Below are positions 27,397-61,735 of a DNA stretch of 64,000 bases, piece after piece. Source of the stretch: Anaeromusa acidaminophila DSM 3853. GTDB lineage: Bacteria > Bacillota > Negativicutes > Anaeromusales > Anaeromusaceae. The stretch's first letter is position 1; each line of letters begins with the position of its first letter. Under the pieces are notes generated by a model. It was not told the origin of the DNA, did not search any database, and saw only the letters and a list, made by a program, of their open reading frames with translations. The stretch lies in the NCBI RefSeq assembly GCF_000374545.1, contig NZ_KB894588.1:62001-126000 (forward strand). The letters run 5' to 3'. A program made the position numbers and the translations under genes.

Positions 27397-27415
27397 AAAA
27401 AAAGGAGGACTTTCA

Positions 27416-29833: not shown

Positions 29834-30427
29834 TTACATCTGTCCCTCCGGCAAGATATCCAGCTTTCTGCGCCAATATCTTGAATAAACAGCGCCTAAG
29901 GGATTATGAGCCATAACGCGATCCTTCGCCACCAAGCACGATACAGGCGCCGCAGACGCGGAAGTAAACAGCATATCATGTCCTACGCAAAGGCCCACGG
30001 TAAAATTCAATTCTGTCTCTTCTTTATTCAATATCGCAGCCTGCACCTTTGGATTACACATAACTTCTTTAGCTCCGTCTTTTATCGGTTCTAAGCCCAG
30101 CTTGTCTTTTTCAATGGCGCAAACCTTGCAGCAAACCGAATGGACCTCAAAAAACTTGGCAAAATACGCCTCGATCAACTTAGCTTCCTCAGCTAAGCCG
30201 ATGCAAAAAGCCAACCCGATTTTCTTGGTTCCTAAGAGCTTGGCAAATTCTACGCTTTCTTCCAGGCGGGTCAGTTTCAGATAATAGCGCCCTTCTGTAC
30301 AAGCCGCCGCCTGCATCATTTCCAGCTCTCTTCCTTGATATTGTTCTTTCACGTCATCTACGGACCAGCCCAAACAATTCTGTCCTATCTTATAGCAGTT
30401 TTTATGTCCGCATTGCGCACATTTCAT
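29834..30427 (-). CDS. DUF1847 family metal-binding protein
   Basis: 197 residues, cysteine-rich. N-terminal MKCAQCGHKNCYK is a possible metal site. Further cysteines lie in SVCCKVCAIEK, VMCNPKVQA and FTVGLCVGHDMLF, the last being the DUF1847 signature. Function unknown. It is the final gene of the 11-gene operon that starts near 36384. Confidence 0.88.
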   Translation of the reverse strand: MKCAQCGHKNCYKIGQNCLGWSVDDVKEQYQGRELEMMQAAACTEGRYYLKLTRLEESVEFAKLLGTKKIGLAFCIGLAEEAKLIEAYFAKFFEVHSVCCKVCAIEKDKLGLEPIKDGAKEVMCNPKVQAAILNKEETELNFTVGLCVGHDMLFTSASAAPVSCLVAKDRVMAHNPLGAVYSRYWRRKLDILPEGQM

Positions 30428-30457
30428 AAACCTTCACGCTTCTTTCCCCAAAGCTTA

Positions 30458-31237
30458 TTATTTTTGCATCAAATTAGCAAGGACTCGCTCCCAGGCCTCT
30501 TCGCAGGCCGGAGAAGCAGCCTGATCCGGAAGACCTTGATCGCCGCCCAGCATAACCAAAGGATCTAAGGGCAAGGCGCCTAAAAAGGAAAGCTTCTTTT
30601 CCGCCGCTAATTTCTCGCCGCCCCCTTGACCGAACGGATAATGGCAATGCCCGCAATCAGGACAAATAAAACCGCTCATATTTTCAATCAAGCCTCGCAA
30701 AGGCAGCTTGACAGTCGCCGCAAAATTCAGCGATTTTCGCACATCCGCCAACGATACTTCTTGCGGGGTTGTCACAACAATTCCTTCACATTGCGGCACA
30801 TCTTGAACCAAGGTTAACGGCTCATCACCAGTACCGGGAGGGCTGTCCATCAAAAGCACGTCCAGCTTTCCCCAATCGGTATCGCCGAGAAGCTGCTGCA
30901 AGAGACCAATTTTCAAAGGACCGCGCCAAATTAATGCTTCGTCAGGTGTGTTGAGCAAACCCTGCATGGTAACCACTTTGACATTCGGTCCATGCGTAAA
31001 AGGCTGAATTCTATCCCCTACGGCCGTGTGCTGCTGCCCCCGCATGCCAAAAATTCCGCTTTGGCTCGGCCCATGCATGTCCGCATCCAATACGCCCACT
31101 TTCCATCCTTTAGCCGCCAGACGAACTGCTAACTGCGCAGTTACCGTGCTTTTCCCTACGCCGCCTTTACCGCTCATAACCAACCAGCGGCGTTTAACGC
31201 CTGCAAGATTTTTTTCAATCTTCGTCATTTCACTCAT
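30458..31237 (-). CDS. Mrp/NBP35 family ATPase (iron-sulfur cluster carrier type)
   Basis: 259 residues. Deviant Walker A MSGKGGVGKST at residues 21-31, Walker B MDSPPGTGDE, and the Fe-S-binding pair CPDCGHCHYPFG. Proteins of this family carry and transfer [4Fe-4S] clusters. Its placement with MinD-ferredoxin ATPases and NifX-like proteins resembles the MRP member of the Desulfovibrio orange protein complex. Confidence 0.92.
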   Translation of the reverse strand: MSEMTKIEKNLAGVKRRWLVMSGKGGVGKSTVTAQLAVRLAAKGWKVGVLDADMHGPSQSGIFGMRGQQHTAVGDRIQPFTHGPNVKVVTMQGLLNTPDEALIWRGPLKIGLLQQLLGDTDWGKLDVLLMDSPPGTGDEPLTLVQDVPQCEGIVVTTPQEVSLADVRKSLNFAATVKLPLRGLIENMSGFICPDCGHCHYPFGQGGGEKLAAEKKLSFLGALPLDPLVMLGGDQGLPDQAASPACEEAWERVLANLMQK

Positions 31238-31295
31238 ACTTCCTACCCCTTCAAGTTTTCTATAGTATTTTCTTTATCACAAACCATGCTTGCCG

Positions 31296-32153
31296 CTATA
31301 ACGCTTTTTGCACGTTCTGCCATAATAATTGGATAGCTGCCTGCAGCTCTTTGCCGCCGCTTTCCCAAATGCTGCAGCCTTCGGAAGACGCCTTGCGAAA
31401 CGCCTCATGATAAGGAAGTTCTCCTACCAGCACAAGTCCCGCGTCCGCAATCCATTTTTTAGCAATGGTCGTCTGGCCCTCATGCAAGGTTGCTTTATTG
31501 ATACACACTAGCACCGGAAGCTCAAAATGTTTGGCCAGCGCCAGCAAGCGTTTCGCATCAGCCAAGCCGCTTCCCGTCGGTTCTAATACCAACAGCACAA
31601 CATCAACGCCTGTTAATGAAGCAATCGTAGGACAGCCTACACCGGGAGGACCGTCGACTAAAAGCCATTCCGCCCCCTGCGATAAAGCCCGTTCTTTCGC
31701 CTCGCGGCGCACCTGGGAAACCAGCTTTCCTGAGTTTTCAATGGCAATGCCCAATTCCGCATGTACCAACGTCCCGAAGGGACTTTCCGATACCAGCCAA
31801 CAGCCAGCCTGGCGTTCCCGCAGACCCACGGCTTTTTGCGGACATACCAAGGCGCAGGCGCCGCAGCCTTCACAAGCTAGCTCGTCCACTACTCCGGCGC
31901 TGGTAATAGCGCCAAAGCGGCACACTTCTTCACATTTCCCGCAGCTCGTACAAAGAGCTTGATCTACAAACGCTTCCAGCCCCGCAAAAAAAGGTTGCCT
32001 TTCAATTTCTCTCGCGTTCAACGTCAGGTAAAAATTAGCGGCATCCACATCGCAGTCCACTAAAACTTTTTTTCTCAAAATACGAGCCAAGGCAGCACTC
32101 ACCGAAGTCTTGCCGCTGCCGCCTTTGCCACTTAGCACAACAATTTCTTTCAT
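31296..32153 (-). CDS. Ferredoxin-containing MinD-like ATPase (1)
   Basis: 285 residues. Walker A LSGKGGSGKTS at residues 7-17. Two [4Fe-4S] motifs are inserted (CTSCGKCEEVCRFGA near 68 and CEGCGACALVCPQKA near 94). MinD-type signature VDGPPGVGCP follows. The ATG overlaps the upstream gene stop (ATGA). Forms a tandem pair with the next gene. Homologs occur in the orp cluster of sulfate reducers. Confidence 0.92.
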   Translation of the reverse strand: MKEIVVLSGKGGSGKTSVSAALARILRKKVLVDCDVDAANFYLTLNAREIERQPFFAGLEAFVDQALCTSCGKCEEVCRFGAITSAGVVDELACEGCGACALVCPQKAVGLRERQAGCWLVSESPFGTLVHAELGIAIENSGKLVSQVRREAKERALSQGAEWLLVDGPPGVGCPTIASLTGVDVVLLVLEPTGSGLADAKRLLALAKHFELPVLVCINKATLHEGQTTIAKKWIADAGLVLVGELPYHEAFRKASSEGCSIWESGGKELQAAIQLLWQNVQKAL

Positions 32154-33010
32154 GCTTTATCCCCCTTGGCCAACGCTCTCACTTGCAGCCAAAACTTCGA
32201 CCAATCCACAGAAATCTCTGTGTCAATATTCCCGGCAGCATATTTTTGAGCAAACTCCCTGGAATAAGGAATTCGCAAAAGAAGCGGCACGTTCATACGC
32301 TGGCACAACTCTTCCACTTCTTTTTCCAAATGGCTTCCATCGCTCTTGTTAAGCACAACACCCGCAGAAATACCAATCCTGGCTGCTACAGAAAGAGCGC
32401 CTCGCAAATCATGAATGCCAAACAAGCTTGGCTCCGTAACCATAATACAGCAATCGCTCCCTTTGACAGCCGCTACCATCGAACAGGTGGTTCCTGGAGG
32501 ACAATCGACAAGGGTTAGCTCCGGGTTTCCTGCAACTGCCGCTTTTTTGGCCGCCTCAATGACCACAGTGCTTGCTACGCTGCCGATTTTGAGCAATCCT
32601 TGAATATATAAATGTTCCTGCCCTTCTTTTCGCCAAATGCCGCACCGCACCTGCCCCACTTCTTCCGGCCGCTCCCGCAATACCTGCGCCGGACAATGTT
32701 GAATACAAACACCGCAAGAATGGCACAATTCCGGGAACACCATTGGTTTGCCACCTGCCATGGCGAGCGCTTGAAAACGGCATAGATCCGCACAAGTACC
32801 GCATCCACTGCACTGGCCGAACAATTCGGGAACCTGCCTCGTCACTACTTGCTCTTGACGCCACTCTACCTCGCCAAAAACATCGCCGTCAGGCGCTTCT
32901 ACATCGCAGTCAACCCAAACAATACTATCGGTTGGCGCTTTCTGCATCATTAATGTTGTCAGAGTAGTCTTTCCAGTACCGCCTTTGCCGCTAGCAATGC
33001 TAATACGCAT
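32150..33010 (-). CDS. Ferredoxin-containing MinD-like ATPase (2)
   Basis: 286 residues. Walker A ASGKGGTGKTT near the N-terminus, two [4Fe-4S] motifs (CSGCGTCADLCRFQA and CHSCGVCIQHCPAQV), and VDCPPGTTC. ATG 33010 follows GAGGAG by eight bases; a longer frame to 33025 is less likely. It pairs with the downstream ATPase and probably forms a heterodimer with it. Confidence 0.92.
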   Translation of the reverse strand: MRISIASGKGGTGKTTLTTLMMQKAPTDSIVWVDCDVEAPDGDVFGEVEWRQEQVVTRQVPELFGQCSGCGTCADLCRFQALAMAGGKPMVFPELCHSCGVCIQHCPAQVLRERPEEVGQVRCGIWRKEGQEHLYIQGLLKIGSVASTVVIEAAKKAAVAGNPELTLVDCPPGTTCSMVAAVKGSDCCIMVTEPSLFGIHDLRGALSVAARIGISAGVVLNKSDGSHLEKEVEELCQRMNVPLLLRIPYSREFAQKYAAGNIDTEISVDWSKFWLQVRALAKGDKA

Positions 33011-33061
33011 AGGTTCACTCCTCATCCTAAAAGTCTCGTTGGGAAATATATTTTTTATGGT

Positions 33062-45405: not shown

Positions 45406-47409
45406 TTAGAAAGTAGCCGTCAATCCCAGACGGAATAAGCGTTCCGGCATATAGTAAGCGCTGCTGTTCGTCGTAACATCGCGCCGATTGAGCAAATTAT
45501 CCACATCAAAGGTCAGGGTACGGTTTTCTTTTAATTTATAGCCTACATGAAGAGAAACAGGAATCATCGCACTGCGATCCAAGCCGTCATTATCGACACG
45601 ATCGCCATAATACATAGCGCTCAAATCCGCCGTCCAAGGACCGCTCATATAGTGTAATGCGCCATTAAAGGTCATGCGCCCCAGCGTCCTGGTCCAAGCG
45701 CTGCCATCGCTTTCCTGCTGTTCCGGATTACCAAAACTGCTTCCCAAAGAATAACTCCAATGCTTACTCAATTTATGATCATAGCTAGCTTCGATACCGC
45801 TATTACGGAACTTTGAGACATTTTGCGCTACATAATAGGTAGAGCCCCCTGAAACTATTTTTTTCCAAGTGATTTGATCGTCAACTTCCAAGTGAAACGC
45901 CGCAACTTTCCACTTTACATCGCCTTTTTCATATTTATAGCCGACTTCCTGATTAAGTCCTGTTTCTGGTTTTAAATCCGGATTGGAAATAAAATTGTCG
46001 CTGCTAGTTTTATATAAGGCGGTAAAATTAGGCATCCTGAAGGATTTGCTGGCATCTAAATACAGTGAGCGATTTTCATCTAAGCGGTGTAAAAACTGAA
46101 GTTGCGGCGAAAGAGCGTCAAAACGTTGTCCTTCTCCTGTTTTAACAACATCCTCGCGGGCGCCGATAATCAGGCGGTTTTTCCTGCCCATTTCTTTATC
46201 CCATTGCATATACAGCGCGTAATGATTACGGTCATGCGGCCCGTTGGTATAGGGCGCTTTTAACGTTCTAGCCGCTTTATTGCCAGATAAGGTTTGCCCA
46301 AAATCATTGTACGATTCCCGTTGCACCGTCGTTCCTGCAAGCCAGGTTGCGCCCCCTGCCTGCCAGGTTTTTTGCGTGTCGATGCCATATACGGTATTCG
46401 TGGTATCTGTCCAATCATGTTTATTCGCTAAAGCCGGTTCGGTGCCTCGCTGATCCACATGTTGACGATTAAAGTACGCCTTGCTGCTCCAGCCGTTCTT
46501 GTCATACGCCAACTGCAGGCGATGCGATTCATCAATATAGTCGCTGGAACGCAGTAACGAATCATCGCCAACTTTTTTATACATCACCGAATAGTCATCT
46601 TTCCCATAGGAGTAATTAGCGGAAAAATGATCATCAAATTTATAATGCCAGTTTACATTGTTTTTGGTAGCGTCTCCAAATGCAGTGTAATAGCTGCCGC
46701 CGGTAGTCCCATAGGTAGCATTAGCCTTGGGATCTGTCATCACACCGCTTTCATTGGTTTTGCCGAAGGAAACATTAAAGCTCGATTTACCGGCTTGCAA
46801 CGATACGCTGTGGCTTTGACCGTCATTACCGCCGGAAACAGTAACGCTGTTTTGCACTTTTTCGCGCGTAATAATATTAATAATGCCCCCAAGCGCCTCA
46901 CTGCCATAAAGAACGGAGCCGCCGCCCTTAAGCACCTCTACGCGCTCCACCTGTTCAACCGGAATGCTCTCTAAGTGGTAATACCCATTCATGTTAATGG
47001 GAACGCCGTTCATCATAACCAAGGTGCCGCTTTCTACGCCGCGAATAATGATTTTACTAGTCATATTTCCCCAAGACTGCCCATGAGGCCCCATGGAGCT
47101 ATAAATCAGTCCGGTGGAGTACTTCAAAGCATCCGCCAAATTTGTCGCTCCAGTGGCTTTAAGCTGCTCCCGACTGTAGCTGCTGACATCGGCTGGCGTT
47201 TCGAGGTTTTTGGACTTATAACGCAAAGCCGTTACGGTTACCTCTTCCAAGGCAAACTCCTCGGTCTCCGCCGCAGTTTTCGCCTCCGAACCCGGTTTAG
47301 ACGCTTCCGCCGCCCAGCCCGACTGCGCCGCACTGCCCACCAACAGCGAACTCAGCAGTAAACACGCCCACAAACGCTTCTTATGTCTTGCCAAATTTTC
47401 TTTTCTCAC
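45406..47409 (-). CDS. TonB-dependent outer-membrane receptor
   Basis: About 667 residues. Signal peptide near residues 5-34. TonB-box-like EEVTVTALR; plug domain about 50-160 (LADALKYSTGLIYSSMG, IIIRGVESGTLVMMNGVP, GGSVLYGSEALGGIINIITR); 22-strand barrel to the C-terminal PERLFRLGLTATF. It resembles BtuB/FepA-type receptors; ligand unclear, but the operon suggests a corrinoid, other tetrapyrrole or metal complex. GTG 47409 follows GAGGAG by nine bases. Confidence 0.92.
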   Translation of the reverse strand: MRKENLARHKKRLWACLLLSSLLVGSAAQSGWAAEASKPGSEAKTAAETEEFALEEVTVTALRYKSKNLETPADVSSYSREQLKATGATNLADALKYSTGLIYSSMGPHGQSWGNMTSKIIIRGVESGTLVMMNGVPINMNGYYHLESIPVEQVERVEVLKGGGSVLYGSEALGGIINIITREKVQNSVTVSGGNDGQSHSVSLQAGKSSFNVSFGKTNESGVMTDPKANATYGTTGGSYYTAFGDATKNNVNWHYKFDDHFSANYSYGKDDYSVMYKKVGDDSLLRSSDYIDESHRLQLAYDKNGWSSKAYFNRQHVDQRGTEPALANKHDWTDTTNTVYGIDTQKTWQAGGATWLAGTTVQRESYNDFGQTLSGNKAARTLKAPYTNGPHDRNHYALYMQWDKEMGRKNRLIIGAREDVVKTGEGQRFDALSPQLQFLHRLDENRSLYLDASKSFRMPNFTALYKTSSDNFISNPDLKPETGLNQEVGYKYEKGDVKWKVAAFHLEVDDQITWKKIVSGGSTYYVAQNVSKFRNSGIEASYDHKLSKHWSYSLGSSFGNPEQQESDGSAWTRTLGRMTFNGALHYMSGPWTADLSAMYYGDRVDNDGLDRSAMIPVSLHVGYKLKENRTLTFDVDNLLNRRDVTTNSSAYYMPERLFRLGLTATF

Positions 47410-47474
47410 TACACACAACTCCTCTATGTACTTCTTATTATGTTTTACGCAGCCTTCGCAGCGTTATCTATAGC

Positions 47475-49415
47475 TCACCTTGCGCCGCCGGCTTCGCGCT
47501 GCGTCCGCCAGCTGCGAAGTATGCGCACTAAGCCGTCGCTTTCGATGGAACGCAGCGGGCGATAGGTTCCCTGCAGCCGCAAAGCGATTTCTTTGGCAAT
47601 ACCCATGCGGACAAAATCCTCTTCCGTATCAATCACCAAAGCGGGAATGTCCTGATTTCCCAGTTTTTCCGCAGCGTCCCGCGCTTCTTGCACAGGGTCT
47701 GCGCCGCCGCTGTTAGCGCGCCCGTCTGTAACCAAAACAATAACAGGCCTGGATTCTTTTTCCCGCAAACGCAAACACTCAATCTCCCGGGCCGTTGTCT
47801 CCAGCGCCGCAGCTAATGGCGTACGGCCTCCTGTAGGCAGCTGCTGCAAGCATTTTCGCGCTAAATCCAAACTGCGGGTTACTGGCAAAAGCATTTCCGC
47901 CTCATGGCGGCGAAAGGCGACAAGAGCAACACGGTCCCGTTTTTGATAGGCATCCTGTAAGAATGATAAAATCGCCCCTTTGACCGCCGCCATTCTCTTT
48001 TTTGCCCCCATAGATCCGCTGGCGTCGACCACAAAAAAGAAAACGCCTCCCACGCGTGTTTCCCGCACCTTTTGGCGTAAATCCTCCGTTTTTATCACCA
48101 GCTTTACGCCTTGAGACGCTCTTTTTTTCTGCCAAGGCGCAGCCGCACGCAAGGTTGCGTCAAAAGCCAGATCGCTGACCTTGCCGTTAGGAAAAATGGC
48201 CCGCACATACCGTCCCTGCTTCAAGGAGGAACGAGTACGGCTGCGCTTGCCATTACCAGCCCGTTCGCGGCGATCCATGGTCTCTTCCAATTTCATCTGC
48301 ATTAAACCCTTTAGCAATGGCAGATCCACTTTTTCCTGAGAGGTCGGCTCCGAGTCCGGCTCCGGTGGTTTATCCTGTTCCTTTTGCTCATTTTCCGGCG
48401 TTTCTTCCTCCGGCGGCTTTTCGTTTTCTGCCGGCTTGTCTGCATCCGTTTCCGGATCTTGCGGCAATTCCGGCGGTTTTTCCTGCTCGCTTTGCTCGTT
48501 TTCCGGCGGTTCTTCCTCCTGCTGCGAATCCCCCTGGTTTTCTTCCGACATAGGCGGTTCTTGCTGCTGCCGCACTCGATGCGGCAATACGTAGAGAGCC
48601 GCTTTTTCCATGTCTTTAGGCAGTACGTATAAACGCTCATCTAATGCAGCGGCGCTCTTAGCCGCTTCCAGTAAAAACAACTCACCCCGATGTCCTGCGC
48701 AATGTCCTTGCGAGCACCACGCCGCCGCCAATTCCATCATTGCCGCGGAAACTTCGACCTGACACACGCATTCTCTAGCTTGCAATATTTTATCTCGCAA
48801 GTGTCTTTCCTCAGCTTCCCACGTCTTAGCTACTTGCTCCGGTTCCCGCTCCCAGCGCAGCACTTGTTTGACGATTTGCGCGCGCAAAGGGGCCTCCTTT
48901 TCCGCACTTATGGATACCATAAGTCCAAAACGATCCAAAAGAGCGTCAGGCAAGGTTCCTTCTTCCGGATTCATCGTACCTACCACACAAAACGAAGTTT
49001 TACTCACCTGGGACAAGCCTTCACGCTCAATACGCACACAACCGGACAATGCGGCGTCCAGCAGCGGACCAATCACTTCGCTGCGCAGTAAATTCACTTC
49101 ATCTACATACAGCACACATCCGTCCGCTTCCGTTAACAAGCCTTTTTGCAGCCGTTCTTTCCCCGTCTCCAAGGCTGTTTCCCAATCAAGGCTGCCAAAA
49201 AGTCGGTCCTCCGTAATATGTAAGGGCAGCGTACGCAAGCCTAGTTCCGGGGCCAAAATTCCTAAAGAGCGAACCAAGGTCGATTTTGCGCTGCCCTTAT
49301 CCCCGGAAAGCAAAATCCCTCCGGCTGAGGGATTGACCACAGCTAAAAGCAGCGCTTCTTTAGCCTGTTCTTGACCCACAATGGCCGAAAAAGGCATTAC
49401 TCCGCCGCTGCGCAT
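47475..49415 (-). CDS. Magnesium/cobalt chelatase D-like protein (AAA+ and VWA)
   Basis: 646 residues. Residues 1-290 are an AAA+ domain with Walker [13 protein letters not shown] and Walker B-like [10 protein letters not shown]. Residues about 293-365 are an acidic Pro/Glu/Gln-rich linker with repeated units. Residues about 455-646 are a VWA domain with MIDAS motif DASGSMG (D464) and TPLAAALE. It pairs with the ChlI-like AAA+ protein to form the ATPase motor of a CobN/BchH-type chelatase. ATG 49415 follows GAGGAG by eight bases and overlaps the chlI-like stop. Confidence 0.9.
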
Positions 49416-50455
49416 GTTCCATTCTCCTCTGCTGCGCCAAACAGTTCATCTAGTACCTGAACTGAAAGGCTCGCTTCTTCAAAAGGCCGCCGCCGCATGC
49501 GGTGCGGCAAAGCCAAAGACGCCGCGCGGCGCACATCCAGTAGCGTGGCTTCCTTACGCTCCTCCAGGGCCGCCAAGGTTAAAGCCGTTTTAATGACCGT
49601 AATATCCGCCCGATGTCCGTCCACGCCCAACTTTAAGGAAGCCTCGGCTACCCGCAAGAGCAATTCATCCTCAATCGCTACCTGGGGCAGCAGCTTCCTC
49701 GCGGCGGTAATTTTCCGCGCCAATTCCTCTTCCGCCGCCTCCCACGCGCCGCGAAATTCTCTTGGCCCCGCTTCGTAAGCCATGCGCCGTTTAATGACCT
49801 CCACCCGAGAAGAAGCTTCATTTTCGCCAGCCACTTCCACAGACAGCGCAAAACGGTCCAATAACTGCGGGCGAATATCCCCCTCTTCCGGGTTCATCGT
49901 ACCAACCAGCACAAACCGGGCCGGATGCGAATAAGAAACGCCTTCGCGTTCTACCGTATTGACGCCCATCGCCGCGGCGTCCAGCAAAACATCCACTACA
50001 TGATCATCAAGCAAATTGATTTCATCAACATACAAAATATTGCGATTGGCTTCCGCCAAAATGCCGGGTTCAAATTTCTTTTCCCCTTCTTTAATGGCAT
50101 ACTCCATATCCAAGGTCCCCACTACCCGGTCTTCCGTAGCGCTCACAGGCAGTTCCACGACGCGCATAAAGCCCGAAACGCCGCTAAGGGCGCCGTTTTT
50201 CGCCAGCTTGGCGGCACAAGCCTCACATAAGCGCCCCGCATCCGTCGGGTCGCAATGAAAGGGACAGCCAGCCGCCATCTCAACAGCCGGCAAGAGCGCC
50301 GCCAAGGCCCGTACGGCCGTTGACTTTGCAGTTCCCTTTTCCCCTTTAACCAATACGCCCCCTAATGCCGGATTCACCACATTTAAAAGCAGAGCCAGCT
50401 TCATGTCCTCCTGCCCGACAATAGCGCTAAAAGGATATACTTGGGTTCGTTTCAT
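49397..50455 (-). CDS. Magnesium/cobalt chelatase I-like AAA+ protein
   Basis: 352 residues. Walker [17 protein letters not shown] (residues about 36-51), the Cys-bearing zinc-like insert [20 protein letters not shown], Walker [12 protein letters not shown], sensor [12 protein letters not shown] 50455 has GGAGGAG upstream. It is the ATPase subunit that drives metal insertion with ChlD-like and CobN. The gene overlaps chlD-like, which supports a complex. Confidence 0.92.
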
Positions 50456-50476
50456 AGTTAACTCCTCCATCTATCT

Positions 50477-51538
50477 CTATTGCTTATGCTCTTGCAGCCA
50501 CCAGCGCGCCGCCGTGCGTTTCAACGCACATTCCCCTTCAACGTTCTGCGGCGCTCCTTGCGCATCGTACCATCTGGAAAAACAGCCGCCGCCGCAATGC
50601 GGCAGCCATTGGCAGTTGCGACACATAGCCATACCGTCGCAAACTCGTTCCGCCGCGCGCTTGCGTAAAAGCGGCTCCGGTCCTTCCTCTACGCGCCCCA
50701 GGTAAAAATGCACATCCCCTGACAACGACGCGCAAGCGTATAGCGAGCCGTCTGCAGCCACATACAAGGCTGCGCCAGTCATCGCATGACAGTGTCCAAA
50801 GCAGGCTAGCTTGCGTTGCTGCAATTTATCGACTCTGGCGACTTGGGCCATCTCCAGAGCCCCCCCGTTAGCCTTGCGCCAAAACTCATTTCTCTCCAGC
50901 GCCTGCCAAAAGCCCTGTTCCACTTGCGCCGCTTGCGGCGCTTGCACCTGATCGCCTCTGCCTCTTGGACGCAGCAGATCAAAGCCTAACGAGCGCGCGC
51001 ACCCGAAGTAGCACGCCATATCAACAGTCTCCGACAGCTTAAGAACATTTTCCGCCGTAACCACACAAGTAACTCCTGCGCCGCATTTTTCTTCCGCCAA
51101 ATTCTTCATACCCAAAGCCACGGATTGCATAGTTCCTTTGCCGTCCGGAAAGAAGCGCATTTGATCGTGAACCGCAGGCCTGCCGTCCACACTAACCCCC
51201 ACGCCGACTCCGTATTGACGCAGCTGTTTCGCTAGTTCCGCCGTAAGAAGCGAGCCATTTGTCTGCATCTGCAGCACAGCCGGCCATTTTCGTTCCCGAA
51301 TCCAGGCCGCCGTCTTGAGCAGCGCCTCCGCCGCCAGCAGCGGCTCTCCTCCTGTAAACTGCACTAAAAATGGCTCTTGTGATTCTTGTGATGCCGCTAC
51401 GGAGGCTACCGCCTGCATAGCGACCGCCAGCGGCATGGACAACGGCTTTTTTCCGGCGGCATAACAGTAGCGGCAGGCAAAATTACATTGCCCTGTCAAT
51501 TCCAAAATCAAAACGCGGCAGCCTTGCCAGCTATGCAT
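50477..51538 (-). CDS. Radical SAM/SPASM-domain protein
   Basis: 353 residues. Radical SAM Cys motif CNFACRYC near residue 18. FTGGEPL is the SAM-contact GGE motif. The C-terminal SPASM-type cluster has Cys in YACAS, CDGMAMCRNCQWLPHCGGGC and ECALK, for additional Fe-S clusters. Such enzymes often modify peptides or proteins; here the target is unknown. ATG 51538 overlaps the cobN end by eight bases. It is placed between cobN and chlI-like. Confidence 0.88.
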   Translation of the reverse strand: MHSWQGCRVLILELTGQCNFACRYCYAAGKKPLSMPLAVAMQAVASVAASQESQEPFLVQFTGGEPLLAAEALLKTAAWIRERKWPAVLQMQTNGSLLTAELAKQLRQYGVGVGVSVDGRPAVHDQMRFFPDGKGTMQSVALGMKNLAEEKCGAGVTCVVTAENVLKLSETVDMACYFGCARSLGFDLLRPRGRGDQVQAPQAAQVEQGFWQALERNEFWRKANGGALEMAQVARVDKLQQRKLACFGHCHAMTGAALYVAADGSLYACASLSGDVHFYLGRVEEGPEPLLRKRAAERVCDGMAMCRNCQWLPHCGGGCFSRWYDAQGAPQNVEGECALKRTAARWWLQEHKQ

Positions 51539-54500
51539 CGCTTCGTTCCTCCAGGTCTCCTTCAATATCCAACTGCAACCGGCGCAGCTGCTGCAGCATG
51601 GCTTCGTCTGCCTGCCACAACTGCCGCTGTGACGCTTCCAAGAGTTTCTCCGTAATGCGCTCCAACGCCCACGGATTGACTTCTTTCATCCACTCCTGCA
51701 TAGTCGCGTCAAGAGCATATTTTTCCGCCAAAGTTTGATACATCCAGTCTTCCATGACCGCGCTGGTGGCATCCCAGCCCAAGCAGCGAGAAACCAAGCC
51801 GGCTAAATCCGCTGCGCCTTTATAACCGTGATGTTTCATACCTTCAATAAATTTAGGATTCGCCATCTCGCCGCGAAAAAGACGTTTGACTTCTTCCTGG
51901 AGCGACCGCACCTTTACTTGACCTCGATCCGAGCTGTCGCCGCAATAAGAGCGGGGAGCTTCCCCTTTCAGCGAGCGCACAGCGGCAATCATGCCTCCAT
52001 GATAAGAATTAAAATCATCCGAATTGAACATATTTACTTCCCGGTTGTCCTCATTTTTCACGGTTACGTCCAGCGTCTGCAAGCGCTGCGCAAACAAGGC
52101 AGGCACGAAATCCCCCTGCGTTTTTGCGCCATAAGCATGGGCGCCCCAGCGCACATAGGCTTTCGCTAAATCGTCTACCGACTCCCAGTTGCGCTCTTCA
52201 ATGACGCTTCCCACACCGGCGCCATAGGCGCCCGGCGGACAGCCAAAAATACGAAAGCTCGCCTGACGCCAAGCGTCACTTGGCGCAGCACCGTTTACCG
52301 CCAGCTGCGCGGCATCCTGCTGCACATGCTTGCGCACATAGTTATCCTCGGCGTCTTCTTCCAAGGCAGCCACCATGGAAACGGCTTCATCCATCCATTG
52401 AACCACTACCGGCATGGCATCTCGAAACATGCCGCTGATGCGGGCGGTTACGTCCAGGCGCGGACGTTTCAATTCCGCCAGCGGGATCACTTCCAAGGCA
52501 ATGACCCGCTGACTTCCTTTTTGCCAAACCGGCCGCACTCCTAAAAAGTAAAGAAATTCCGCAATGCATTGCCCTCGGCTGCGCATATTGGCGCCGCTCC
52601 AAAAAATCATGCCAATATTTTCCGGATACCGCCCTTCTTCCGCAATGTAACGGGCAATCACGCCATCACCTAGTTGGCAGCCCAGCTCCCACGCCGCCGA
52701 GGAGGGCAGCAGCTTTGGATCGACGCCATAAAAATTGCGCCCTGTGGGCAGTACGTCAGTCATACCGCTGGTAGGCGATCCAGCAGGGCCCGGCTCTACA
52801 TAACAGCCGGATAAAGCGTCCAGCAAATGGCCCATTTCCTGACTTGTCGCCTGCAATGCCGGAACCAGCACTTCGCAAATATGCTCCGCTAACCTTGCCA
52901 GCTGTTCCCGCAGCGAAGCATCACAATCACCAATACTAGCCACCGCGCTTCGCCGCGCCCCTTCATTAAAATTCCCGGCTTGCAAAATGTCGATAAAGCG
53001 CCTGGCCGCTTCTTCCACTTCATCCAAAATCCGCCCCTGCGTTTGCAGGCCGTCTGGCGTCAGCACGCCGCTTGCCGCCAGCAAAGCCTCATACTCATAG
53101 CCGCGGATGTTAGCCAGCAGTTTCGGCAAAGAAGGCTGCTCCGCCTGCTCGACGCGAGTCAGCGCCAGCAAGTAGCCAAGAAGAGTCTCCTGCTGCGGCG
53201 CCTGCCCGAGTATATGCAACCCTGTACGAATGGACATGTTTTTAATTTCTGAAATATAGGCGTGCAGCTTTAAAGCATAAGCTGAAAAGTCCGCCTCCGG
53301 CGGCACTTCCTTTTCCAAGGATGCAGTCGACGCTTTTTCCCGAATTCGTCTAGCCGCCACCTCCGCCTGTTCCGGTTGAAAGGTTAAGAAATGCTGGTAC
53401 TCTTCGAGCATTTTTTCTAATTCTTCCAGTTCTTCATACGCTTCCGCCCTAGCCATGGGCGGCGGCAAATGCCCGATTAGGCAGGCGGCGCTGCGCCGTT
53501 TAGCCTGTACGCCTTCGCCAATAACCGTAATCAAGTACGGATATACGTTCGGCAAGTCCGCCAATGCCAAATCCGGATAGCACGCTTCGCTCAGTCCCGC
53601 GCCCTTGCCTGGCAGCCATTCCAACGAGCCATGAGTGCCAATATGTACCACCGCATCCGCTTGAAAATCCTCTTTCAGCCAGCGATAAAAGGCCAAGTAA
53701 TGATAGGTGGGCGCACAATCCGGCGAATGATACAGTTTCCCCGGATCTCCCTCAAAGCCTCGCGGCGGCTGAACCATAACCACCACATTACCCAGGCGTA
53801 AACCAGGCACCAGCAAGCCTTCTTCATAACAAAAGGCTTCTCCCGGAGCCTCGCCCCAGCTTTCCTTCATATGCGTCCGCACTTTTGGGGGCCACTGTTT
53901 CGCCCATTCTTGAACCCGTTTTGACTCAACCCAGCCCAAAGCAGTCTTCTTTTGTTTGTCTGTCAAAAAACGCCCGTCATTGGTCGCCTGGGCCAGCATA
54001 GCTTTCAGCAGCTCCGCCCCATTCACGGGCAGTTCGCCAACTAGATAGCCAGTTGCCTCCATTCTCTCCAGCAGCCGCTGTACGCTTGCGGGAGAATCAA
54101 GGCCTTCCGCCGTACCAATATTGAAATTACGGGGCGGATAATTATGAAAAATGATAGCAATTTTCTTTTCGCTATTCTTCTTCTGGCGCAGCCTAGCCCA
54201 TTTTGCCGCCCTAGCGGCCATAGCCTTGCAGCGTTCTGCGATCGGTTCAAAATGACTTGCCCCGTCTTCAGTTTGATTTTTCGCCGCCAGAGGCGCTCCA
54301 TGAATCACACCGTCAAACTCTGGAAGCACAACACAACAAGAAAGTTCTACTGGGTTTAGACCGGTTACGCTTGTCTCCCAGCTCTCCTCCGTTTGCAGCA
54401 AAGTAACGCCTTGTAAAATTGGCACATTTAACTTCTGTAAAAACAAAGGGTCCACAGGACGACCAACGGTAAGGGAAAACTTGAAGCAATTAATAACAAC

Positions 54501-55226
54501 ATCCACTAGGCAGCGACCTGATGCATCAAAGAAAAAGCGCCGCACCGCCTCGTCTACGCCTGGCGCCCCTAAAGCCTCATTCTTGGCCCAATGGCTAAAA
54601 ATCGGAATGACCTGCAGCCCCTGCGCCTCCAGCTCTCGAATCAAGCTTTCCTGATGCCGCAAATCGCGCCAAACCCACTCATCGCGTGGAAACAAGACGC
54701 CCGCAGTTAAAGATTTTTCCGACCAGCATTGTTGCTTAAACGCAAAAAAATCCTCCGCTTCCCCCTGGTACGCAGGATGAAAAATTCCTTGCCACGGCTG
54801 CTGACGAGGTTGCTCCCAAAATACTTTTTCTTGAACAAACAACGCAGCCAACCACTGCCAAAAATTTATATAGTTTTGCACGCCCCCAAAAGAAAGATAC
54901 TGCCTCGCCTGCAATTGCCTTGCCGCATTAAAGCCCTGCGCTTCGCCTTTTACTTCCGGATTCGCTGGCAGCATCACAAAGGGCTTCTGCGCCCGTCGCA
55001 AATAGGCTATTGTTTTTTCTAAAAAAGACCACTCTTTTCCATGGCCCATCCATGAGCACACCAAACATGCGCACTGATCTAAGGTATGCTGCCATGCCGC
55101 TGTCCAAAGTGCATCTTCCTGAAGCCCTACAACTTGACCTGCTGCAGATATGTTACACTGTCGCAGCGCCTGCTGCATTTGCTGCTGTTGCCGCTCAATA
55201 TTACTAATAAAAACAATCGACTTCAT
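51531..55226 (-). CDS. cobN: CobN-family cobaltochelatase-like subunit (BchH/CobN)
   Basis: 1231 residues, normal CobN length. The conserved HIGTHGSLEWLPGKGAG lies at about 528-544. GADVDP-like region and GSPTSGMTDVLPTGRNFYGVD near 820 are family hallmarks, as are FFGCPPG-type IFGCPPGAYGAG and the C-terminal GYKGAADLAGLV region. CobN inserts Co2+ into hydrogenobyrinate diamide in the aerobic B12 pathway, with ATPase partners. In this anaerobe, with a CbiK also present, its role may be different. AAGGAG precedes the ATG. Confidence 0.93.
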   Translation of the reverse strand: MKSIVFISNIERQQQQMQQALRQCNISAAGQVVGLQEDALWTAAWQHTLDQCACLVCSWMGHGKEWSFLEKTIAYLRRAQKPFVMLPANPEVKGEAQGFNAARQLQARQYLSFGGVQNYINFWQWLAALFVQEKVFWEQPRQQPWQGIFHPAYQGEAEDFFAFKQQCWSEKSLTAGVLFPRDEWVWRDLRHQESLIRELEAQGLQVIPIFSHWAKNEALGAPGVDEAVRRFFFDASGRCLVDVVINCFKFSLTVGRPVDPLFLQKLNVPILQGVTLLQTEESWETSVTGLNPVELSCCVVLPEFDGVIHGAPLAAKNQTEDGASHFEPIAERCKAMAARAAKWARLRQKKNSEKKIAIIFHNYPPRNFNIGTAEGLDSPASVQRLLERMEATGYLVGELPVNGAELLKAMLAQATNDGRFLTDKQKKTALGWVESKRVQEWAKQWPPKVRTHMKESWGEAPGEAFCYEEGLLVPGLRLGNVVVMVQPPRGFEGDPGKLYHSPDCAPTYHYLAFYRWLKEDFQADAVVHIGTHGSLEWLPGKGAGLSEACYPDLALADLPNVYPYLITVIGEGVQAKRRSAACLIGHLPPPMARAEAYEELEELEKMLEEYQHFLTFQPEQAEVAARRIREKASTASLEKEVPPEADFSAYALKLHAYISEIKNMSIRTGLHILGQAPQQETLLGYLLALTRVEQAEQPSLPKLLANIRGYEYEALLAASGVLTPDGLQTQGRILDEVEEAARRFIDILQAGNFNEGARRSAVASIGDCDASLREQLARLAEHICEVLVPALQATSQEMGHLLDALSGCYVEPGPAGSPTSGMTDVLPTGRNFYGVDPKLLPSSAAWELGCQLGDGVIARYIAEEGRYPENIGMIFWSGANMRSRGQCIAEFLYFLGVRPVWQKGSQRVIALEVIPLAELKRPRLDVTARISGMFRDAMPVVVQWMDEAVSMVAALEEDAEDNYVRKHVQQDAAQLAVNGAAPSDAWRQASFRIFGCPPGAYGAGVGSVIEERNWESVDDLAKAYVRWGAHAYGAKTQGDFVPALFAQRLQTLDVTVKNEDNREVNMFNSDDFNSYHGGMIAAVRSLKGEAPRSYCGDSSDRGQVKVRSLQEEVKRLFRGEMANPKFIEGMKHHGYKGAADLAGLVSRCLGWDATSAVMEDWMYQTLAEKYALDATMQEWMKEVNPWALERITEKLLEASQRQLWQADEAMLQQLRRLQLDIEGDLEERSDA

Positions 55227-55250: not shown

Positions 55251-55940
55251 CTACGAGGCAAAGCCTGTCTTTTTTCGCTGCACCATCAGTCCATCTGCAA
55301 TAATCGCCGCCTGCCTAGTAAGACCTTCTTTCAAAGGCAGATTCAACCAGGGAATACCGTACTCCCTCTCTAAATACCGCGCTAATGCGCCCCCAAGTTC
55401 TTCATGTCCCACTACATTTAGCTGTACCCGGGTCGAACTTGCAATATCCGCTAGTGTCGCTTTACACCCGGGCGCTGCCCGAACCGAAACCCCTATTTTC
55501 ATCAATGCATCACTCAATTCAGCAAACTGCTCTACATCTTGCTGGCAGCTCACACTATAACCAAGTACGGCAATTTGATTCGGAAAAATTTCACGCCGTT
55601 CTTGCAGAGGCAAGGTCTGGAATAAAGCGGCCGCCGCACTGCGATAGCCGCGCGCAAACAATTCCGGCGAGCCATTGCCATTCTTCCGCAGCAATTGGTA
55701 ACTATGCAATGTCCTCACTGCTACGCGAGGCAATAACTCGTCAGAAGCCAGCATTACCGCTTCCTCTCGGCGCACCCCATCCAGTCCCTGCCTTTCCAGC
55801 AACCCGCAAGCGTAGAAATAACACCAGAGTGATTGCATGCGTGCAGCTCCTACATCGGATATGCTCGCAAAAAATGCGCTAGCCCCTTGCCATAGCGCCT
55901 CATTTTTCCGCATAAGCCAATCCGCTTTTCCTACACGCAT
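55251..55940 (-). CDS. Protein with nitrogenase component-1-like Rossmann domain
   Basis: 229 residues. The C-terminal half (residues about 122-220) resembles one Rossmann domain of nitrogenase/protochlorophyllide-reductase component 1: IAVLGYS, then ALMKIGVSVRAAPG, ATLADIASSTRVQLNVV, and LARYLEREYGIPWLNLPL. Cysteines that bind P- or FeS-clusters in NifD/BchN are not clearly present. The N-terminal half is unassigned. It lies between tonB and cobN, 24 bases from cobN. I place only moderate trust in the family link. Confidence 0.5.
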   Translation of the reverse strand: MRVGKADWLMRKNEALWQGASAFFASISDVGAARMQSLWCYFYACGLLERQGLDGVRREEAVMLASDELLPRVAVRTLHSYQLLRKNGNGSPELFARGYRSAAAALFQTLPLQERREIFPNQIAVLGYSVSCQQDVEQFAELSDALMKIGVSVRAAPGCKATLADIASSTRVQLNVVGHEELGGALARYLEREYGIPWLNLPLKEGLTRQAAIIADGLMVQRKKTGFAS

Positions 55941-55963: not shown

Positions 55964-56665
55964 TTATCCTCTCAATCGAAAGCTAACTGACAATGTCGTC
56001 CGGCAACGCACCGCGCCGCCGCCCTCCTGTCGTGCCGGCACAAATTGCCATTGCCTAACCGCGTCCAATGCCGCTTCATCCATTTCTCCATATCCCGAAG
56101 AAGACACCACGTTCGCATCGCCTACGCTTCCGTCTTCTAAGACCAGCATGCGCACCGCTACACGTCCTTCAATACGCTGCTGCCGCAGAGTTTCCGGATA
56201 GGCAGGCTCCGTCTGCCGTAAGATGCGCGGCGGTAATACTCTAGCGGAAGCAGGTACTGTCCCGCCACTACCGCCAGCACCAGTTCCTGCGCTTTGTCCA
56301 TCCGACGGGCTGCCTCCCTCTAACGAACCTCCGCCAGCTGCAGCGCCCTCACTGACAGGGCCAGCCGCAACTGCGTTTCCCATAGCCTGAGGCGCCGCTT
56401 GGACATTGGTCGGCGCCGCTGCAACAGCGCTAACGGCGGCCTGGGTTTGCTGCTGTCTAGCAGCCGGTGCGCTTGGCGGCGCTATCGCCGGCATAGCCGC
56501 TGCTGCACCATTTACAGGCAAAGGCGCAGCGGTTAAGGAAAGCTCCAAATACTCTTCTGCGGCTTGCGCTGGCCAAGAAAAAACGCCGACATATCCTAGC
56601 ACTAGCAGGACCACAAGATGCGCGCCCGCCGAAATTGCCAGCGCTTTTTTTGAACTTTTACTCAT
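55964..56665 (-). CDS. tonB: TonB energy-transducing protein
   Basis: 233 residues. N-terminal membrane anchor (residues 8-27), an Ala/Pro/Gly-rich linker across the periplasm (residues about 50-145), and a C-terminal TonB domain (TEPAYPETLRQQRIEGRV; SGYGEMDEAALDAVRQWQFVPA). ATG overlaps the exbD stop. Serves the TonB receptor 8.5 kb downstream in the same operon. Confidence 0.93.
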   Translation of the reverse strand: MSKSSKKALAISAGAHLVVLLVLGYVGVFSWPAQAAEEYLELSLTAAPLPVNGAAAAMPAIAPPSAPAARQQQTQAAVSAVAAAPTNVQAAPQAMGNAVAAGPVSEGAAAGGGSLEGGSPSDGQSAGTGAGGSGGTVPASARVLPPRILRQTEPAYPETLRQQRIEGRVAVRMLVLEDGSVGDANVVSSSGYGEMDEAALDAVRQWQFVPARQEGGGAVRCRTTLSVSFRLRG

Positions 56666-57078
56666 GGCTGCGCAGCTCCCGCTTCTGTTGCCACGCTAAG
56701 ACGCTGCACTCCGGCAGCTTTCAAGGCATCCATAACAGCCACTACCCGTCCATACTCCACACGTTTATCAGCGCGCAAAACAAAAAAAGCTTCCTGCTGC
56801 CTGGATATTTCCAACCGAATTCGCTTCCCTAAAAGCGGCAGAGGCACATTTTCCTCATCTACATATGTCTGCCCTTCAGCCGTTACCGTAACGGCCACCT
56901 GCTTTTTCAAATCCGCCTGCGCCGCTTGCGCCGCTGGCAACTGCACAGGCAGCGTTTTCTGCTCTACCATATATAAGGTGCTCAGCATGAAGAAGACCAA
57001 GAGAAAGAAAATAATGTCAATCATAGGAATAATCATCAGCCGTGGCTGACGCGATACCCTCCATTCACGCAGTTTCAC
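56662..57078 (-). CDS. exbD: ExbD/TolR-family biopolymer transporter
   Basis: 138 residues. One membrane segment with the proton-carrying Asp in IPMIDIIFFLLVFFM, then a periplasmic domain ending VERLSVATEAG-like. GTG 57078 follows GGGAGG by seven bases and overlaps exbB by 14 bases; a longer frame to 57102 lies inside exbB. Confidence 0.93.
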   Translation of the reverse strand: MKLREWRVSRQPRLMIIPMIDIIFFLLVFFMLSTLYMVEQKTLPVQLPAAQAAQADLKKQVAVTVTAEGQTYVDEENVPLPLLGKRIRLEISRQQEAFFVLRADKRVEYGRVVAVMDALKAAGVQRLSVATEAGAAQP

Positions 57079-57691
57079 GGCTGCGCCTCCCTGTAGCAAC
57101 ATTGGAACCCGTCAAAAGGGCAGCACCGCATTCTTCCATGTCTCCCGCTAAGCGTTCTAAACGTTGGCAAAGCCAGGAATGACACAACAACGCCAAAACC
57201 GCTACGCAAAGCCCTGTTGCTGTCGCCACCAACGCTTCCCCAACGCCGCCAGTAATAGCCTGCATTTGTCCTGTTTTGACAGCCAACACCTGAAAGGACT
57301 GAATCATCCCCACCACGGTTCCCAAAAGGCCCAGGAGCGGCGCTAATGTGACAATGGTCTCCAAATAGCTTAAGTGTTCCCGAAACCGTCCCATTACCGT
57401 CGCCGCCGCATTCTCAAACATTTGCAACTGCACCGACGCCTCTAAGCCACGCCAGCTATATGCATCCTGCAGCAGCTTAGAAAAGGCTCCCGCCGTTGCC
57501 GGCGGTTCAATCCATCGGCCCTCTTGCAGCGAACTCAAAAATTCCGCCTTCCCGCCTCGAAAACTCTCCGCCTCTTTATAGTTCCAATGCCGCTCCAAAG
57601 TCACTGCCACCACCAAAATCGAGCAAAAAATCAACGGATACATAACCACGCCACCCGCTTGAAATAACTGCCAGATCCGCTCTAAATCCAT
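57065..57691 (-). CDS. exbB: ExbB/TolQ-family proton channel protein
   Basis: 208 residues with three membrane segments (about 13-33, 105-130 and 150-172). Family signature LAPLLGLLGTVVGMIQSFQ and the pore region EALVATATGLCVAVLALL. Forms the proton channel that powers TonB. AAAGGAG precedes the ATG. Confidence 0.94.
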   Translation of the reverse strand: MDLERIWQLFQAGGVVMYPLIFCSILVVAVTLERHWNYKEAESFRGGKAEFLSSLQEGRWIEPPATAGAFSKLLQDAYSWRGLEASVQLQMFENAAATVMGRFREHLSYLETIVTLAPLLGLLGTVVGMIQSFQVLAVKTGQMQAITGGVGEALVATATGLCVAVLALLCHSWLCQRLERLAGDMEECGAALLTGSNVATGRRSRETA

Positions 57692-57851: not shown

Positions 57852-58613
57852 TCAAGATCGTAAAGAATGAGTCTTTCTTGCAAATCTCGGTGCAATCTCT
57901 TGCAAGCCTTCTTCTTTAAACAAGGCGTCCTTTACACCGGATTTTACTGCATCCGCCAACATTTCCCCTAGTTTCGATTGCGTACCGACATCCTTGCATA
58001 CCAATCCTTCTAAATGGCTTACAAGAATTACCCCATCCGTGCCGGTGCCAGTTGCCTGAAGCAAACTATGAGGGCTGTATACCCTTAAATCCTGCAAGGC
58101 TGCGGTTTTCGCTTCCGTAGCTGTAATCAGGGCTTTCGCTAAAGCTCCCGGGGATAAGTTTGCTTCTATAAGCAGCATGATATTGATAGTTCCTGAAATA
58201 GGAACGTATTTTCCATGATGTTCCCAGTAAAGCGCATCATCCCCGGCTCGGGCGGCATTATGCTTCACCCCAGCCGTCACAATGGCTTCCACTGTAATTC
58301 CTTCATAAAAACGTCGTTGGTAGGACATGAATTCCATATGGGCTGTCGTTAAAAGACCGCTTGTTTCATCTTTTTCTAAACCTTCCCTCATAGCAATAGC
58401 TGCTAAGTATCCTTCTAAGCCGCCGCCAGGCAGTGCCGCCTCACTTTCAACATAAAAAGTCAAGCGATGATTAAATATTGCCGATACCTCGCGAATCCCG
58501 CCGTTGTACGGAGAGGTACTTAAAGCAATGCGTCGCTGTGAAAAACGGCAAATCAGCAAATCTTCCTTAATCTGCAAAACACCTCCTGCAGAAAGCAGGC
58601 GAGTTTGCTCCAT
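57852..58613 (-). CDS. cbiZ: Adenosylcobinamide amidohydrolase
   Basis: 253 residues. CbiZ cleaves the aminopropanol side chain from adenosylcobinamide to give adenosylcobyric acid, for corrinoid salvage. Family motifs: TAGVKHNAARAGDDALYWEH, GTINIMLLIEANLSPGAL and TGTGTDGVILVS. ATG 58613 follows AAAGG by ten bases; the longer frame covers the leader terminator. It is the first gene after cobalamin riboswitch 1. Confidence 0.92.
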   Translation of the reverse strand: MEQTRLLSAGGVLQIKEDLLICRFSQRRIALSTSPYNGGIREVSAIFNHRLTFYVESEAALPGGGLEGYLAAIAMREGLEKDETSGLLTTAHMEFMSYQRRFYEGITVEAIVTAGVKHNAARAGDDALYWEHHGKYVPISGTINIMLLIEANLSPGALAKALITATEAKTAALQDLRVYSPHSLLQATGTGTDGVILVSHLEGLVCKDVGTQSKLGEMLADAVKSGVKDALFKEEGLQEIAPRFARKTHSLRS

Positions 58614-58652
58614 ATAAATCCAACCTTTCTGCCAGCCAGGCGCTAGCGCCAA

Positions 58653-58691
58653 TAAAAATAGACTACCCCGTCTACAATAGACGGGATAGTC
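58653..58691 (-). terminator. Intrinsic terminator of cobalamin riboswitch 1
   Basis: A 14-bp stem with TTG loop (GACTATCCCGTCTA with TAGACGGGGTAGTC) followed by TATTTTTATT, between the riboswitch and cbiZ. It is the expression platform: B12 bound should favour termination. Confidence 0.9.
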
Positions 58692-58754
58692 TGAATTGCC
58701 AAACAATGCTTACTTTGCTAAAGCACGCCTGCCAAATCCCCTCCCCATCGTTCG

Positions 58755-58945
58755 TAGGTCAAATGGTGATTGTCAAACAGGCAGTTCTCCTGGCTCTGGA
58801 TCTTTGCTCATTCAAACCTTCCCAAGGCTTTCGCCCCAGTGGCATTTCTTGAATTCGCTCCCCATTACAGTGGCGGGACCGCGCCGGTATTGCACCGGAC
58901 TTCCCTATTAAGCCCTTACGGGCACCTGTTCCGCTTCTTTATTGA
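58755..58945 (-). promoter_or_regulatory. Cobalamin riboswitch 1 (before the cbiZ-cobN operon)
   Basis: Conserved core on the minus strand: AGGTGCCCGTAAGGGC, GGGAAGTCCGGTGCAATACC, GGTCCCGCCACTGTAA, TGCCACTGGGGC, and the B12 box AGCCAGGAGAACTGCCTG at 58778-58795. It begins only about 25 bases after the cbiK stop, and I see no strong promoter in between. The operon may be read through from cbiK. Confidence 0.95.
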
Positions 58946-58969: not shown

Positions 58970-59887
58970 TTAGTGTTGCGGCTGATACAAGCCTCGAATT
59001 GCATCACGAACATGATTCACATAAATAGAACGATACGCCGCATTTTCTCCTAGCCCTTTCAGAACCGTTTCTACTTGGAAACCTTCTTTTTGCAGACGGT
59101 TTTTCCAAGAATCCGGCTCACTGCCAGCCATATCATTATTTGCATGATCGCCAGCCACCAGCATAAACGGCATCAAGGTCACCTTCTGAATTTGGTTCTT
59201 TTTCAGTTCCGCCAACGCATCCTCAAAGTTAGGATGGTCAGTTTCTTCCACTACTCCCATATAAGCTTTATTGCCTCTCTCTTGCAAAATGCTCTGCATT
59301 TTTGCATAGGCCGGATTCGGCTGATGCGGCGAACCATGGCCCATGAAGAGAACCGCTTCCCCGTTTCCTAATTTAGGCATTTGTTTTTCAACCGCTGCGG
59401 CCAAAGCCTTGAAATCATCTGGCATGCCTTGCTGTCCGTCAAACATCAAAACTGGCCGTCCTACTGCAATGCTTGCAAAGGAATTATCAGCCCAAGCCTG
59501 ACGATATGCATTCAGAATCTTCTTTTCATATTCCTCGCCCGGAGTCAGATGCAATGGCTGAATGACCACTTCTTGATAGCCTTCCGCCTTCAACTTTGCC
59601 AAGGCTTGCTCCAATGTATCCACTTGAATTTTTTCTTCCGCCGCCATCTTTGCAATTACTTTCCGAGCCGTAAAGGCGCGGCGCACTTCGTAATCTGGAA
59701 AAGCCGCCCGAATATCATTTTCCGCAGTTTCAATGCAAGCCTTGCGAGCATCTGGAAACGTAGTGCCGAAACTGGTAACTACAATGGCTTTTTTCGTTTG
59801 CGCGGCTGAAGCCCCTCCTCCAATACCAACCGAAAGCAAACATACGGCGCACATGGCGAACAGTCCTTTTTTCATCCACTTATTCAT
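58970..59887 (-). CDS. cbiK: Exported sirohydrochlorin cobaltochelatase, CbiK type
   Basis: 305 residues. Signal peptide at residues 1-28 (GLFAMCAVCLLSVGIGGGASA). Chelatase fold: AIVVTSFGTTFPDARKACIE, QPLHLTPGEEYEK (catalytic His), FMGHGSPHQPNPAY, and FMLVAGDHANNDMAG (second metal His). It inserts Co2+ (or Fe2+) into sirohydrochlorin. Periplasmic CbiK forms are known from Desulfovibrio vulgaris. It sits under cobalamin riboswitch 2. Confidence 0.93.
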   Translation of the reverse strand: MNKWMKKGLFAMCAVCLLSVGIGGGASAAQTKKAIVVTSFGTTFPDARKACIETAENDIRAAFPDYEVRRAFTARKVIAKMAAEEKIQVDTLEQALAKLKAEGYQEVVIQPLHLTPGEEYEKKILNAYRQAWADNSFASIAVGRPVLMFDGQQGMPDDFKALAAAVEKQMPKLGNGEAVLFMGHGSPHQPNPAYAKMQSILQERGNKAYMGVVEETDHPNFEDALAELKKNQIQKVTLMPFMLVAGDHANNDMAGSEPDSWKNRLQKEGFQVETVLKGLGENAAYRSIYVNHVRDAIRGLYQPQH

Positions 59888-60009: not shown

Positions 60010-60190
60010 GTATAGCGGTGATTGTCAAACAGGCAGTTCTCCTGGCTCTGGATCGTCGCTCGCCCAAACCTTCCCAAGGCTTTCGCCCCAGTGGCATTTC
60101 TTGGATTTGCTCCCCATTACAGTGGCGGGACCGCGCCGGTATTGCACCGAACTTCCCTATTAAGCCCTTGCGGGCACCTGTTCCATACAT
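60010..60190 (-). promoter_or_regulatory. Cobalamin riboswitch 2 (before cbiK)
   Basis: Same core as riboswitch 1, with the B12 box at 60030-60047 and GGGAAGTTCGGTGCAATACC (one change). Very close in sequence to riboswitch 1. Confidence 0.95.
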
Positions 60191-60208
60191 ATTCAGTTGT
60201 TATTGTTA

Positions 60209-61524: not shown

Positions 61525-61715
61525 CGCAGGTATAGCGGTGATTGTTGGTTAGGCAGTTCTCCTGGCTCTGGATCATCGCGGCTTCAAACCTTCCCGGAAC
61601 CATTCTTCCAGTGGCATCTTTTGAAGCAACTCTCCCATTACAGTGGCGGGACCGCGCCGGCATTGCACCGGACTTCCCTATTAAGCCCTTGCGGGCACCT
61701 AAACCCTCTTTATGC
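61525..61715 (-). promoter_or_regulatory. Cobalamin riboswitch 3 (before the porin)
   Basis: Core as in riboswitches 1 and 2 (AGGTGCCCGCAAGGGC, GGGAAGTCCGGTGCAATGCC, GGTCCCGCCACTGTAA) and B12 box AGCCAGGAGAACTGCCTA at 61550-61567. Confidence 0.95.
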
Positions 61716-61735
61716 GGTTTTCTTTACTAATTTAA

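Follow-up and report, generated by a model that had tools for sequence, protein, structure and literature searches.

The locus described here lies in a stretch of 64,000 nucleotides (the window) of the present genome, named G000 below; the other three genomes of the genus are G001, G002 and G003. An open reading frame of 229 amino acids at 55251-55940 on the minus strand, hereafter X, encodes a solo, truncated K-type protein of nitrogenase component 1, as judged from the ORF, PF00148 and an HMM of the K family. As the earlier note had placed it, X sits between tonB (55964-56665) and cobN (51531-55226), separated from them by about 23 and 24 bp; a ribosome site, AAGGAG, precedes cobN. The first gene of the presumed operon is that of CbiZ, an adenosylcobinamide amidohydrolase (57852-58706, minus strand; PF01955, E 1e-51), followed by exbB-exbD-tonB (55964-57691, minus strand), which lies immediately upstream of X and was recognised from its ORFs and from a homologous trio in related clusters. 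After X, cobN (minus strand) encodes the large subunit of a CobN/BchH-type class I chelatase (TIGR02257 above cut-off, PF02514), and its end is overlapped by the gene of a radical SAM/SPASM-like protein of 362 aa (50477-51565, minus strand; PF04055) that recurs in many related clusters and scores far under the cut-off of each NCBIfam model listed for it. The ChlI- and ChlD-type AAA+ chelatase partners of CobN come next (47475-50470, minus strand; TIGR02442, TIGR02030 and TIGR02031, below the curated cut-offs), and the run is closed by a TonB-dependent receptor (45406-47418, minus strand) whose best matches are heme/hemoglobin and vitamin B12 receptor models, below their cut-offs.

A cobalamin riboswitch, as expected of a cobalamin-regulated corrinoid operon, lies ahead of cbiZ-exbBD-tonB-X-cobN (58763-58944, minus strand; RF00174, 114.9 bits). 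It is one of three in the window: another (60015-60196, minus strand; RF00174, 115.7 bits) stands ahead of cbiK (58970-59887; PF06180), and the third is found at 61535-61717 on the minus strand. From the riboswitch before cbiZ, together with the tight same-strand packing from cbiZ to the receptor at 45406, it follows that X is probably under riboswitch control in G000. Moreover, in G001 and G002 two tandem cobalamin riboswitches stand directly before X and, by their position, tie X itself to B12 status.

Beside the TonB receptor, the segment 41213-45392 holds an ECF-type transporter (a CbiQ-like protein and a double ABC ATPase) and, next to it, a membrane protein of 552 aa with no Pfam match. 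Elsewhere in the window, two ParA/MinD-type ATPases with ferredoxin inserts, an NUBPL/Mrp-type ATPase and a DUF1847 protein stand in a row (29834-33025), and a c-di-AMP riboswitch is present at 27277-27409 on the plus strand (107.9 bits).

X belongs to the component-1 family as a shortened K-type (NifK/NifE/BchB-like) subunit. The motifs IAVLGYS, GVSVRAAPG, LNVV and LEREYGIPWLNLPL, on which a component-1 Rossmann domain had been proposed, are found in X as quoted. In Pfam, Oxidored_nitro (PF00148) matches with 46.6 bits against a gathering cut-off of 28.6 (E 3e-12); the match covers residues 96-208, where residues 120-225 had been predicted, and corresponds to profile positions 122-230 of 399 only. 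These residues form Rossmann domain II (55317-55655, minus strand), the best conserved part of X (Pfam; pLDDT ~80-92). The BchB, NifE and NifD models of NCBIfam listed for X are all far under their equivalog cut-offs, and the closest single PDB sequence match is ChlB (2xdq_B, E 8e-5). From 24 homologs, AlphaFold2 gave a model with good confidence at residues ~90-220, with Rossmann alternation, and mostly low confidence at 32-91. Foldseek pairs this model best with alpha chains of nitrogenase and with BchB (3aeq_B), at a probability of 1.00 and, for BchB, over 127 columns at 2.8 A, so that the structural test put forward earlier also came out in favour of component 1; TM-scores normalised on X are only ~0.36-0.47, residues 32-91 being poorly modelled. 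Neither an unrelated fold nor a missing Oxidored_nitro match was found with Pfam and Foldseek. The G002 ortholog, modelled alone, gave a pLDDT of 41, too low for use.

A chance ORF is ruled out by the Pfam score, by conservation and by purifying selection, and a recent frameshift or assembly error by the occurrence of the same kind of short, stop-free ORF in four genomes. The earlier term fragment suits X as a short form that is fixed and inherited, and not as a broken gene, there being neither a frameshift nor an internal stop. No relatives of X were found in viral contigs, and a scan of genome contigs with X returned only distant full-length component-1 homologs.

The extent of the shortening can be read from the comparison with the full-length parent genes, for which nflH, nflD and nflK are used as labels of convenience. 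On the HMM of full-length K, residues 16-53 of X align to positions 18-55 and residues 92-207 to positions 132-247; the spacer between these parts is 38 residues long in X versus 76 in K, and has the same length of 38 in the G002 ortholog, which is merely 40% identical to X. X thus retains some 55 N-terminal residues and Rossmann domain II; domain I is about 38 residues shorter and domain III (K residues ~250-433) is absent. Three cysteines, C18, C43 and C102, are invariant in 21/21 full-length nflK sequences, and nflD has three cysteines of this kind and a fourth. X keeps one of the three, C40, the equivalent of C43, in the motif LWCYFYA of its N-terminal segment (residues 1-55; 55776-55940, minus strand), and the segment with the NSC cysteine and the IGDD motif is missing. 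Since only the second nflK cysteine is kept, X is without the usual ligands of the shared cluster; the cluster-binding cysteines, described earlier as unclear, are by alignment mostly missing.

A catalytic K subunit (NflK, BchB, NifK) requires three Rossmann domains, the cluster cysteines, and partners of the D and NifH types from its own system. X has neither the three domains nor the full set of cysteines, and in G000 it has no such partners. Indeed, nflH, nflD and full-length nflK were found in neither G000 nor G003 (nflD searched at E 1e-30). The claim that a NifH partner is absent has thus been borne out for the clade matching X; G000 carries nif genes including NifH, and this nif protein, 57% identical to nflH, is the single strong NifH of the genome. 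With the NSC/IGDD segment missing, X is unlikely to serve as a nif nitrogenase subunit.

The parent system, nflHDK, recurs and is larger in scope than X. Full-length relatives exist in G001 and G002 and, with a threshold of E 1e-25, in 84/381 genomes of the class, which to judge by its outer-membrane genes and general character is probably Negativicutes; when the phylum was sampled evenly, nflK was detected in 2/399 genomes (E 1e-45), both from the same class as G000. In G002, a cobalamin riboswitch precedes nflH-nflD-nflK, some 25 kb away from X; a TonB-dependent receptor comes next, and the vicinity holds CbiK, CbiZ, BtuF/C/D, another CobN and a nitrilase-like gene. In further families of the class, nflHDK has the same companions: CobN, ChlI, ChlD, the radical SAM protein and BtuFCD, and further CbiZ, CbiK, TonB/ExbBD and TonB receptors. 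Such corrinoid clusters with nflHDK (L069:13549-16937, L104-L123, L137) often place it directly behind cobalamin riboswitches: a riboswitch lies at most ~400 bp upstream of nflH in eight loci (L069, L107, L108, L113, L114, L115, L117 and L137), and none was seen upstream of nflH in several others, e.g. L118-L123. The place of X in G000, directly before cobN, is taken by nflK in L117 and L118.

The best PDB match of nflD is 9d9u_A/9fmg_A, whose title reads only 'Nitrogenase' and which we take to be MarD of methylthio-alkane reductase. Domain III of nflD has no invariant histidine or cysteine, hence no sign of a FeMo-cofactor-type site, and a tetrapyrrole-type active site would be favoured for nflHDK on this sequence evidence. 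Two nflD-nflK pairs (L105:5910-8493 and L104:7063-9661) belong to genomes without an nflH-clade reductase, G073 and G077, and may use the nif NifH. No description of nitrogenase-like genes with cobalamin riboswitches or CobN was found in the open-licence texts of PubMed Central.

K proteins without partners are also known from two other families, in one with and in the other without the cysteines. In four genomes of one genus (G070, G071, G074 and G076, family f7), a K protein of ~440 aa, K2, stands directly behind a cobalamin riboswitch and directly before a TonB receptor (L110:9243-10571, L134:9287-10645, L135:9404-10717, L136:9385-10740). None of these four genomes has matching H and D genes, that is, an nflH-clade reductase or an nflD of the nflHDK type, the weak nflD matches of G071 and G076 (28-29%) being other component-1 genes; an nflD fragment is left in G072, and in G073 and G077 nflD and nflK still lie beside K2. 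In family f16, two genomes (G091 and G093) carry a nearly full-length solo K', between BtuD and exbB and ahead of exbB-exbD-tonB, from which the cysteine motifs are gone (L109:9505-10764, L112:9494-10807). Altogether, a cobalamin riboswitch directly precedes a solo K2 or a lone second K copy in six loci. The second K copies of genus g47 were ruled out as partnerless, nflD adjoining them, and were excluded from the solo count. Finally, G287 has a piece of 134 aa (L138:9694-10098), near a CbiK fragment and tonB, that comprises only the C-terminal domain of nflK and is probably a decayed gene. Among the partnerless K proteins, X is the most reduced form.

The preferred explanation, to which about an even chance is given, is that X would be a non-catalytic, B12-regulated partner of CobN for the handling of corrinoids or tetrapyrroles, kept as a stand-alone protein after the loss of its enzymatic role. 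Its chief rival is a fading relic: X would be a remnant of nflK left by the loss of nflH and nflD, with little or no function, whose frame remains open since it is short and lies in an operon. The comparison within the genus bears on both. In 4/4 genomes, X has its frame intact and lies immediately ahead of cobN, with identities to congeneric orthologs of 94% and 40%. The G000 and G003 copies differ by 14 nonsynonymous and 14 synonymous changes (pN/pS 0.32, Fisher p 0.0025), and in the 113 codons of domain II (residues 96-208) by 2 nonsynonymous versus 4 synonymous ones (p 0.037); the G001/G002 pair is too alike to inform on selection. X is under purifying selection, weaker than that on the neighbouring genes (dN/dS 0.04 to 0.13). 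In a tree built from X together with K and solo K proteins, X is monophyletic with a support of 1.00; its position beside the nflK of family f34, with a support of 0.44 and a long branch, is a tentative pointer to its parent within nflK.

The fast divergence of X, down to 40% between species groups, and a pN/pS above that of the neighbours are also what partial relaxation would produce, and the loss of the catalytic parts and the decaying pieces elsewhere (the D fragment of G072, the C-terminal K piece of G287) fit a relic as well. Against a relic speak a frame intact in all four genomes, the pN/pS value and the two nonsynonymous changes in domain II, an identical spacer length in two types of X so far apart, and the tandem riboswitches that X has of its own in two species. 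This reading is accordingly held to be rather doubtful, while it stays ahead of the other rivals.

The relation between X and CobN is seen in a mosaic. Between G000 and G002, the DNA identity is 83% over tonB-exbD-exbB, 96% from the CobN body to the TonB receptor and 86-92% at reference loci elsewhere; for X and codons 1-174 of cobN, hardly any DNA match can be detected. At the protein level, the block of X and CobN residues 1-174 is 40-46% identical, and within CobN the head (residues 1-174) is 46% and the body 98% identical, the break falling at residue 175. The segment 54706-55963 of the window, with X and the CobN head, shows this sharp mosaic break between species groups. The DNA mismatch of X and head and the CobN break at 175 indicate that both were probably replaced together, swapped between species as a single block; the block may, on the other hand, reflect no more than how far a single recombination tract reached. 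Heme is bound at the head/neck interface in HmuS, which is homologous to CobN (PMC12583661), and this by analogy makes a relation between X and the head attractive without proving one.

The same exchange in a block with the CobN head, the position of X between tonB and cobN, and the solo K' directly before exbB-exbD-tonB in two genomes would also suit a structural or regulatory partner of CobN-ChlI-ChlD or TonB-ExbBD that binds no tetrapyrrole; this is considered improbable, as the context of the parent family is corrinoid chemistry throughout and the conserved part of X is its Rossmann domain. There is a very small chance that X still takes part in an electron-transfer enzyme, with NifH or a further component-1 subunit supplied by the nif cluster or by nflHDK: the nif genes with NifH in G000 and the one cysteine retained speak for it, but the NSC/IGDD segment and domain III are missing, and G000 and G003 lack nflD.

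As a partner of CobN, X would act as follows. At low cobalamin, the operon with X would be expressed; corrinoids or related rings would enter via the TonB system and be trimmed by CbiZ, and CobN with ChlI/ChlD would insert or exchange the metal. The Rossmann domain of X would bind the imported or intermediate corrinoid or tetrapyrrole, and X would hand the ring to the CobN head domain or hold it there. X itself should reduce nothing, being without cluster ligands and electron-transfer partners. The stripped-down substrate-binding version suggested in the earlier note is confirmed as to the stripping down, and substrate binding would now be its best-supported role. In G001 and G002, which hold X and the full nflHDK together, X could still work with that complex.

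A wider proposal, tentative and clearly less probable than the role of X itself, is that nitrogenase-fold proteins without partners, and partly without Fe-S ligands, may on more than one occasion have turned into corrinoid chaperones that serve CobN and respond to B12, their source being an nflHDK system that would act on corrinoids under cobalamin riboswitch control. The known nitrogenase-like tetrapyrrole reductases act in chlorophyll and F430 synthesis; if the proposal is true, a riboswitch-controlled nitrogenase-like complex would extend the substrate range of the superfamily to corrinoids. It could also explain the role of CobN-ChlI-ChlD in anaerobes that already have CbiK, and the short or partnerless K proteins would be cases of a nitrogenase fold put to new use with no redox chemistry. 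Being small and having a single obvious candidate partner, X lends itself to a direct test at the bench.

The fold of X is that of an ordinary component-1 protein. With PF00148 proteins it shares domain II and part of domain I, but it lacks domain III and most cluster ligands. Among known systems, the BchB/ChlB subunit of dark-operative protochlorophyllide reductase is matched by X in sequence (2xdq_B) and superposes on it (3aeq_B); BchB, however, acts with BchN and BchL, whereas X has no such partners and no domain III. Open-licence PubMed Central texts yielded neither a genus-wide, partnerless short K form in a B12 operon nor a nitrogenase-fold companion to any HmuS or CobN system. The HmuS and CobN class I (de)chelatases belong to the same superfamily as the gene product that follows X. 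Finally, the group IV nitrogenase-like reductases (CfbCD, Mar/NflHDK) share the NifH-D-K layout with the parent nflHDK, which differs from them in lying in corrinoid clusters controlled by B12 riboswitches, X being its solo K derivative.
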